Source: Oscillospiraceae bacterium
GTDB lineage: Bacteria; Bacillota; Clostridia; Oscillospirales; Ruminococcaceae
Length of the DNA: 64,000 nucleotides
NCBI GenBank assembly: GCA_021201235.1
Contig: JAJQFI010000027.1
Coordinates: 62,001-126,000, forward strand
Direction of reading: 5' to 3'
The stretch's first letter is position 1. Each line of letters starts with the position of its first letter. Both the position numbers and the translations under genes were made by a program. Shown one piece after another: positions 12,777-34,504 of this stretch. The notes beneath the pieces were generated by a model. That model searched no databases and was not told where the DNA came from. It saw nothing but the letters and a program-made list of their open reading frames with translations.

Positions 12777-12878
12777 AATAAGTGGGATGCGAAAACCGAA
12801 CCGCAGGGTCAAACCGTTTCGTCCGCAGGACAACTCCCCGTTCCCGTGGCACTATAACGCTCGGTTTTCTACTCTTTT
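12777..12878 (-). promoter_or_regulatory. Tetrahydrofolate (THF) riboswitch in the folT leader
   Basis: On the minus strand the sequence follows the THF aptamer consensus in order: GAGTAGA, a P2 arm GAAAACCGA (12861-12869), CGTTA, AGTG, a GGGA/GGGGAGTTG core, ACGAAACG, GCGG, the matching P2 arm TCGGTTTTC (12791-12799), and GCATCC. The nine-base P2 helix is perfect. THF riboswitches sense reduced folates and usually control folT, which is the next gene. The mechanism is unclear; no terminator follows, so translational control is more likely. Confidence 0.92.
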
Positions 12879-32786: not shown

Positions 32787-32886
32787 AAAAGCCGCCATTT
32801 CCGGCGGCTGTTATATAATCGGCAGGGATTCATGGCTCTTCTCTCCCCTTCTGAAACCAATTTTGTGAGCCTCCTGCCGTTAATTT
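32787..32886 (-). ncRNA. Candidate small structured RNA of about 100 nt with terminator
   Basis: On the minus strand CGGCAGG (32873-32879) pairs with CCTGCCG (32820-32826), and inside it GGCTC pairs with GAGCC, closing a purine-rich internal loop. Eleven bases later comes a perfect 7-bp terminator hairpin AGCCGCC/GGCGGCT (32790-32809) with a short T run. No open frame or ribosome site is evident. An AT-rich -10-like stretch lies just upstream. I do not recognise a known RNA family. Confidence 0.5.
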
Positions 32887-32930
32887 ATATTATTCGGGAG
32901 TCGTCCGAACGGTTACAAAAACCGCAAACC

Positions 32931-32955
32931 AAAAAGGGAGCGGATAACCGCTCCC
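32931..32955 (-). terminator. Terminator of the 0.7-kb RNA unit
   Basis: GGGAGCGG pairs with CCGCTCCC around a 4-base loop, followed on the minus strand by TTTTT. Confidence 0.88.
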
Positions 32956-33458
32956 TCATTATATCAATTTATCACCATATGCTGTGCGCCTAAGACGTAT
33001 CGTCAGCGCTTTGTCGCCTTGGTATCAGGTTTTAACTTAGCTTACTTCATCACGTCCAGGCTATTAAATAAACCTCACGCATGAACCATGTTATCGTCAA
33101 AGCTTGGTATCGTCAGATATTATCACTGATGCGACTACAGCCAATTTAAAGTCTTTGTTGGACTCACCCTCTCACTGCTAGATTTTGATTTCCTTCTTGT
33201 GAAACAGTTTCATGGTGCATCAAATCCTTTCGGGCTTTAAACCTTTTTGATTCGGATTTTCTTGATTTATGTTGGGCAAGATATTTTCTTGCTGTTACAG
33301 AATCAATTTCATAGCTTTTATCTTTTATCTTGAGAAATTGGTTTCGTACCTAAGAGAACATCTCGTAATGTGTCAAGTATAAAGATTCTATTACTTTTGA
33401 ATCTGTGAGTCGGTAAGAGTTATGCTGAGAATGCCGGACTCACCTCTTTCGTTTTATT

Positions 33459-33500
33459 TCAGTCGTAAATTCCGCTTCTTGCTACTCTTAATACTTTCAT
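33459..33500 (-). CDS. 13-codon open frame inside the long RNA
   Basis: MKVLRVARSGIYD, with AAAGGAG nine bases before the ATG, which is as good as the ribosome sites of the real genes here. It is followed by the GTGAGTCC hairpin. It could be a leader peptide or a chance frame; nothing else supports translation. Confidence 0.35.
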   Translation of the reverse strand: MKVLRVARSGIYD

Positions 33501-33632
33501 AACAATCGCTCCTTTGCTTTTAAGACGCGGTGTTACTTGCCTGTGATTCTGAAGATTTGTTACCTCTTCATCGGAACCCTCTCCCTTTTAGATTTCAGTG
33601 ACTTTTTTTATTTATCTCTCTTCTGTGATTGT

Positions 33633-33661
33633 ATTATAACACACCCGGATTCAAATGTCAA
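33633..33661 (-). promoter_or_regulatory. Perfect consensus promoter for the 0.7-kb RNA unit
   Basis: On the minus strand TTGACA and TATAAT with exactly 17 bases between them. It diverges from the DUF1292 promoter about 100 bases away. Confidence 0.88.
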
Positions 33662-33762
33662 TAGGTTTTTCAAACTTTTTTCAAATTTTTTTGTGAAATT
33701 TTCTGAAGAGCTCGTGTTATCTTTTGAATATAAATTTGAGTGGTTTCTACACAAAAGTACCA

Positions 33763-33791
33763 TTGACAAATCCGCAAGTTTTCACTATAAT
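33763..33791 (+). promoter_or_regulatory. Perfect consensus promoter for the DUF1292 gene
   Basis: TTGACA and TATAAT separated by 17 bases; start codon 35 bases downstream. Confidence 0.9.
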
Positions 33792-33825
33792 AGAATCAAA
33801 TCTATTTGCAAAGGAGATTACCACC

Positions 33826-34188
33826 ATGGATGAAAACGAATATATGCCCGAAATCTATACCCTTGAGGACGAAGAGGGCAATGTCGGCAACTATGAGCTT
33901 ATAGACATTTATGACGAAGGTGACAACACCTATTATGCACTTGCTCCCTACTATGAGAATCCCGAGGATCTCGTGAACGACAACGGCGAGTTCATCATTC
34001 TGAAAGTAGAGGACACCGGCGACGAGATTACCCTTGTTTCCATCGAGAGCGAAGAGGAGTATGACAGACTGGGACAGATCTTCATCGACAGATTCGACAA
34101 CTGGGACGACGAGTGTGAGTGCGACTGCGAAGATGACGACTGCGATTGCGACGACGAGGATTGCCAGTGTCATCATCACGAAGAGTAA
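33826..34188 (+). CDS. DUF1292 protein with Cys/Asp/His-rich tail
   Basis: 120 residues, very acidic. The first 95 residues are DUF1292 (YTLEDEEGNVGNYELIDIYD; NTYYALAPYYEN; EFIILKVEDTGDEITLVSIE; EEYDRLGQIFIDRFD), a short domain of unknown function common in Firmicutes next to ruvX and mutS2. The last 25 residues add a tail with six cysteines in CxC and DxC steps (ECECDCEDDDCDC, then DCQCHHHEE), which is not part of the family and looks metal-binding. Start follows AAGGAG. Strong promoter. Confidence 0.88.
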   Translation: MDENEYMPEIYTLEDEEGNVGNYELIDIYDEGDNTYYALAPYYENPEDLVNDNGEFIILKVEDTGDEITLVSIESEEEYDRLGQIFIDRFDNWDDECECDCEDDDCDCDDEDCQCHHHEE

Positions 34189-34244
34189 AAACTTCGCATA
34201 GAATAGCTCAGGTGAGTTATACTAACCTTAGAATCCATTCTGCC

Positions 34245-34272
34245 TTGCTCGATTAAGCATGGTTTTTATAAT
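34245..34272 (+). promoter_or_regulatory. Promoter for the RNA at 34279
   Basis: TTGCTC and TATAAT separated by 16 bases. Confidence 0.7.
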
Positions 34273-34278
34273 CCAACA

Positions 34279-34504
34279 CATATATTTAGGGAATCTCGCT
34301 CCGGGCGCGGGGATGCAGACCTCCCAAAGTACGCACGGTTGATGCCCCCGCACGACCCTGTTCAAGTACTGAGGACGAAGGGAGCACGAAACGTCAGGGC
34401 TGATACCCACCTGCTTCGTGCGGGTTTTATGTATCATGTGGCGACAAGGCGGAAGCCCCCCAAAAATTAACGGCTGATACTCAAACAGTACCAGCCGCTT
34501 TTTT
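34279..34504 (+). ncRNA. Candidate structured noncoding RNA of about 225 nt
   Basis: A promoter and an intrinsic terminator frame a GC-rich stretch without a credible frame. Helices seen: GCGGGG with CCCCGC (about 34300 and 34348), CCCGCACGA with TCGTGCGGG (about 34349 and 34416), CCCTG with CAGGG inside it, and a possible end-to-end pairing of CACAT with ATGTG. GGCTGATAC occurs twice (about 34396 and 34472). Its length and paired ends are compatible with a 6S-like RNA, but I cannot match a consensus, so identity is open. Confidence 0.55.
34471..34504. terminator. Bidirectional terminator
   Basis: CGGCTGATACT pairs with AGTACCAGCCG with one mismatch, followed by CTTTTTT; the minus side also ends T-rich. 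It ends the RNA at 34279 and the minus-strand HTH gene. Confidence 0.85.

Follow-up and report, generated by a model that had tools for sequence, protein, structure and literature searches.

A conserved clostridial RNA gene that probably carries an array of translated micro-ORFs

A minus-strand stretch of about 0.7 kb, lying between yrzB and rpe in an Oscillospiraceae genome, is very probably an RNA gene carrying an array of translated micro-ORFs. Within the window (the whole 64,000-nucleotide stretch of DNA analyzed here), this unit extends from a TTGACA-17-TATAAT promoter (33661-33633; score 12/12, with a TG before the -10 element) to an intrinsic terminator with a stem of ten pairs and a T tail (32957-32934), and both ends agree with the promoter-to-terminator unit delimited by an initial annotation of the DNA. 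That annotation's statement that the stretch holds no real gene was also borne out: minus-strand ORFs of at least 60 aa are absent between 32660 and 33802, and a 98-aa plus-strand ORF (33537-33833) has no match to any Pfam family. The repeats it listed are likewise present, with GGTGAGTCC occurring twice (33444-33436 and 33168-33160) and TGACGATA three times (33115-33108, 33099-33092, and 33005-32998). As three promoter-like sites scoring 12/12 lie within the 5 kb examined, a perfect score is by itself no rarity in this region; it is the conservation of the unit in 29 of the 31 genomes of its genus that exceeds chance.

This conservation was determined by DNA search, in which G007 and G015 were the two genus genomes without a match, the window's own genome had a single copy, and the first sample gave no match in any of 16 genomes from other families. 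The genus includes Candidatus Faeciplasma pullistercoris, which NCBI places in the Oscillospiraceae, Eubacteriales. A TTGACA-type promoter was detected by pattern in 26 of the 29 units and by eye in two more. The shortest units measure about 0.4 kb and the longest perhaps 1.9 kb, some ends being uncertain (L037, L039, L040, and some others may extend beyond the true unit end); a weak second match in G019 (L049) was excluded as a unit. The unit matches no Rfam model, and the proposal of a hitherto undescribed RNA with a promoter and a terminator to itself is upheld. We found no description of an RNA of such design in the open-access literature searched.

The units are built from modules, each consisting of an extended Shine-Dalgarno (SD) site of the AAAGGnGTGA[GT]TCC type, which fits most of the 3' tail of 16S rRNA, followed by a micro-ORF; a conserved spacer, TGATTCC or TGAGTCC, stands ahead of the micro-ORF in the genus units. 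Module 1 of the window (33586-33560, minus strand, as are all modules) comprises AGGGAGAGGGTTCCG and the micro-ORF MKR, and all 29 units have a three- or seven-codon ORF in this module (MKR, MKN, MYR, MKM, MRN, or the seven-codon MKRHLNQ type). Module 2 (33516-33459) comprises AAAGGAGCGATTGTT and MKVLRVARSGIYD, with an ORF of the ARS/ARN/PRS type again present in 29 of 29 units (MKLARSWI, MKVLRVARSGIYD, and relatives). The latter is the 13-codon frame (33500-33459), preceded by AAAGGAG as ribosome site, that had been singled out initially; the frame does matter, but it is not single, being one of a recurring series of ribosome site/micro-ORF modules found across genera. Module 5 (33229-33178), with AAGGATTTGATGCACC, encodes MKLFHKKEIKI (33213-33178), which is open at the same position in all 11 close relatives that form the window group, with the pattern MKL[FS][HY]K[KV]EI[KR]I. 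Two further modules with GTGAGTCC lack an ATG: module 3 (33450-33420; GAAAGAG ahead of GTGAGTCC, GTG frame VSPAFSA) and module 6 (33176-33135; GAGAGG ahead of GTGAGTCC, GTG frame VSPTKTLNWL); in both, the GTG frame closes early and its start is uncertain. Short-form units contain the additional ORFs MNVNKHKIL and MNRCxTA, long units contain MKLFRRCMEI, MKIFRRYIKT, and others, and in L046 and L030 modules 1 and 2 are duplicated in tandem. Window-group units also include long conserved blocks that contain no module, at 33120-32960 and in other stretches; CGTGATGAAGTAAGCTAAGTTAAAACCTGATACC is one example.

Some of these micro-ORFs vary as coding sequences do. Among the 12 short-form units, MKLARSWI shows seven distinct changes, all seven of which are synonymous or stop-to-stop, a result equaled by none of 20,000 random draws; the regular expression used permitted changes at listed places only, but no short-form unit was omitted by it, since 12 of 12 matched. 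For MNVNKHKIL, 8 of 13 changes in 11 units are synonymous (p 0.0008), while for MNRCxTA the proportion is 7 of 22 in 12 units, which is not significant (p 0.095). Because some micro-ORFs vary synonymously, and because the 13-codon frame belongs to a cross-genus series, the unit is not strictly noncoding. A long protein across the unit is contradicted by the window group, in which, of 101 indel runs relative to the window, only 12 are multiples of three. Two further ideas on the micro-ORFs were abandoned. A C-terminal isoleucine arrest motif is not claimed, as isoleucine ends peptides no more often than glycine does (11 of 47 distinct peptides each), and readthrough from a micro-ORF stop into the next GTG was dropped when the window and several units proved to be out of frame.

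The fit of the modules to the ribosome can be expressed as pairing energy with the 16S tail, which in the window's genome ends GGATCACCTCCTTTCT. The median is -14.7 kcal/mol for 140 genus modules and -13.3 kcal/mol for 67 sister modules, whereas 37 window genes, each given its best start, have a median of -10.3 kcal/mol; this contrast is partly built in, because the modules were chosen by a motif that contains the SD letters. In an unpicked scan, SD-like sites on the RNA strand, on the other strand, and in shuffles numbered 275, 67, and 163 for the genus and 204, 88, and 147 for the sister genera. The window's assembly also contains a second, differing 16S rRNA fragment (L052), perhaps a contamination.

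The divergent neighbor of the unit encodes a yrzB-like DUF1292 protein (33826-34188, plus strand; Pfam PF06949, E 1.8e-12), and this gene was used as a landmark in sister genera. In a family sample of 61 genomes, 53 have DUF1292, and the divergent side was taken for 51 of these, the two of the window's genus being left out. In 22 of the 51 regions, at least 581 nt pass before the next 100-aa ORF, and the exact motif GTGA[GT]TCC occurs in 13 of these 22 but in none of the 29 others, with 29 copies compared with about 0.6 expected. A looser module pattern matches all 22 long-gap regions, and 21 of them have a frame shorter than 30 codons, the exception being L149, which has a 192-codon frame only. 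By these features, 21 of the 22 long-gap sister regions appear to carry an RNA of the same kind. Module matches in the 22 regions (22.6 kb) number 55 on the RNA strand and zero on the other; outside, 11 matches were found in 96.9 kb, or 0.11 per kb. In the 29 regions without a long gap, where the RNA is therefore absent or located elsewhere, module-like matches number 18 versus 5 in 84 kb per strand.

In the sister modules, the early stop is specific to strand and frame. Of 55 matches, 27 meet an in-frame stop within three codons, whereas the two alternative frames do so in 8 of 53 and 16 of 54. Start-stop or two-codon ORFs account for 21 of the 55, with MY-stop and MK-stop the most common, though a bare start-stop also occurs. 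Across the 22 regions, the RNA strand has 31 instances of an SD followed by a start, zero or one codon, and a stop, and the opposite strand has one; when the SD is ignored, the counts are 68 and 25. The first ORF is longer in the sister genera, at about 13-30 codons, and in 18 of 26 collected examples its fifth codon specifies glutamate, via both GAA and GAG.

The pattern GGNGTGAGTCCNATG occurs 39 times in 394 genomes of the order, compared with four occurrences of the reversed pattern; of 30 such loci, 24 open a frame of at most 30 codons and 5 a frame of more than 50, so that the site serves mainly micro-ORFs. Three of the loci, from three genera of a second family, adjoin a divergently oriented DUF1292 gene (Pfam E 1e-14) and have 6S RNA close by; others do not lie at such a place. 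When a profile of the first 254 positions (R1) was searched against the same 394 genomes, 91 matched at E 0.01, but matches with E below 1e-10 were confined to the six sampled genus members; DUF1292 was beside none of 14 weaker loci checked by a motif, and one weak match, in G396, adjoins DUF1292. A class-wide pattern, AAGGRGTGAGTCCNATG, was found in 5 of 391 genomes and in none of the 18 order members of that sample. Among named genomes, the module-3 pattern was recovered in 32 stretches, of which 27 are Clostridia-type gut records and 5, about the chance level, belong to other phyla; it is also present on one viral contig. In another family (L195-L202, around position 1500), first micropeptides recur as the types MVTEETSxxFAGLAA and MVSEIEQQFRTARLAGAH. 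In other families (L218 and L210, around 1500), a promoter is followed by GTGAGTCC, an ATG-Gly-stop minigene, and then a longer coding-like frame; minigenes may therefore also sit in ordinary 5' leaders.

Among the explanations considered, we favor, at a probability of roughly 40%, that the unit is a stand-alone RNA acting through ribosome loading, either as a decoy or to buffer initiation capacity. Such an RNA would be abundant, and 30S subunits would bind its module sites strongly, since most of the 16S 3' tail is able to pair with them. Translation would end at once, after a few codons, so that ribosomes and initiation factors would be taken up and then released, and the RNA could buffer initiation capacity somewhat as 6S RNA acts toward RNA polymerase. 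The comparison of genera shows a design that ranges from the start-stop and two-codon minigenes of the sister genera to ORFs of about 20 codons. Several points speak against a decoy: some micro-ORFs are kept at the peptide level, for which a pure decoy would have no use, though MNRCxTA is not significant; the start-stop minigenes come from the sister genera, while the window's ORFs have at least three codons; the ATG-less modules have no clear start; 29 sister regions show no long gap; and window-group units contain the conserved module-free blocks.

Known systems offer partial parallels to buffering of this sort. The bar gene of phage lambda is a two-codon minigene. The mg2 minigene, likewise of two codons, is described in the axe-txe leader (PMC8708949). 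With these the modules share an SD, an ATG, one codon, and a stop, a combination that engages a ribosome without making a protein; the same arrangement, with at most one codon after the start, is found in the 22 sister regions, the shortest micro-ORF of the window having three codons. However, mg2 and bar lie inside another mRNA, while here several minigenes would be combined with longer conserved micro-ORFs in a single RNA that has a promoter and a terminator to itself. Like the present RNA as proposed, 6S RNA stands alone and occupies a core machine, and it is encoded just beyond yrzB; it mimics a promoter by structure, however, and the present RNA would mimic mRNA starts by sequence. Sponges of the CsrB/CrcZ type bear repeated GGA sites, and a short GGA-rich motif is similarly repeated here; the copies, however, precede an in-frame start and an early stop, and the fitting partner is 16S rRNA.

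Next in order, though rather unlikely, is a ribosome-gated sensor, in which ribosomes that pause, terminate, or fail to start on the micro-ORFs would choose between hairpins, and the folded form would regulate in trans, much like a series of leader peptides with no gene after them. It would account for the peptide-level conservation of micro-ORFs and for the position of their stop codons, which often lie 7-16 nt ahead of the next GTGAGTCC module. It would also suit a hairpin that covers the module-3 motif, GTGAGTC (33443-33437) with GACTCAC (33411-33405): pairing is kept in 96.4% of cells in 16 sequences and in at most 48% when the pairing is slid, but only one-sided G-U/G-C changes are seen and a shuffle control fails to separate it (392 of 500). 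Secondary structure of the unit is in fact weakly supported overall. Of the checks proposed by the initial annotation, conservation in relatives was found, but there is little covariation, pairs with two-sided change in the consensus folds numbering 3 of 47 for the short form and 5 of 149 for the window group, and a sensing peptide hardly fits two-codon minigenes. Leader-peptide attenuators and arrest peptides such as TnaC also have short conserved ORFs, good ribosome sites, and nearby hairpins; the unit has such ORFs with SD sites, but several in series, and, judged from the DNA, no downstream gene under control in the same transcript.

It is improbable that the RNA is instead a polycistronic mRNA for micropeptides, for instance fMKLARSWI and a first peptide of the MVSEIEQQF type, serving as signals or antimicrobials. 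The synonymous variation fits, as do related first peptides in other genera (e.g., MVSEIEQQFRTARLAGAH and MVTEIEQQFRTARLAGAH), but many of the ORFs are one to three codons long, and in the window's genus the first ORF is reduced to MKR.

A large structured noncoding RNA with incidental ORFs, the class to which OLE, ROOL, GOLLD, and raiA belong, is a more distant prospect still. Those are also long bacterial RNAs with their own promoter, and the module-free blocks of the window group and a fold modestly better than chance (z -2.3 against 20 shuffles, terminator included) would agree with it. However, when the whole window was searched against Rfam, the unit had no gathering-level match, and a search of 32850-33720 up to E 10 gave seven matches, all below gathering and none to these four RNAs; the best two, Termite-leu and BSnc120, fall on the terminator hairpin and were rejected. 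Membership in this class, as first suggested, is not supported, with no model matched and few two-sided changes, and the synonymous variation and the strand- and frame-specific micro-ORFs also argue against it. The candidate structured RNAs described in PMC8040213 are 27-219 bp long.

A decayed protein gene or the leader of a neighboring gene, a leader-peptide RNA having been the other initial suggestion, is the least credible explanation despite the short open frames and the location between yrzB and rpe: the indel runs and the Pfam-negative plus-strand frame oppose the former, and a leader is unlikely by sequence because the terminator ends the unit, rpe has a promoter-like site of its own, and the next gene differs among relatives.

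Returning to the unit, we note that its neighborhood recurs. Beyond yrzB, outside the unit, lies a probable 6S RNA (34234-34459, plus strand; RF00013, 38.2 bits, gathering 46.4); this match is below gathering, but 6S RNA was found at gathering beyond DUF1292 in 7 of 10 relatives searched, so that RNA, yrzB, and 6S form a recurrent block. 6S was the sole Rfam match in the relatives, and the unit itself has no RF00013 match up to E 10. As a tentative proposal, the RNA may represent a new ribosome-engaging class, present in two or more families within a single clostridial order, in which extended SD sites lie in tandem, each with a start-stop or micro-ORF, and which would act as an initiation-capacity buffer or sensor beside yrzB and 6S RNA. 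If so, there would be bacterial RNAs in which translation starts are themselves the working parts. They would provide a natural setting in which to study the sensing or buffering of free ribosomes, the retention of start-stop ORFs, and the selection of micro-ORFs only one to three codons long. Being neither ordinary genes nor strongly structured, such RNAs are missed both by gene finders and by searches of the Rfam type. Elsewhere in the window, a THF riboswitch was identified at 12778-12878 (minus strand; 80.1 bits).
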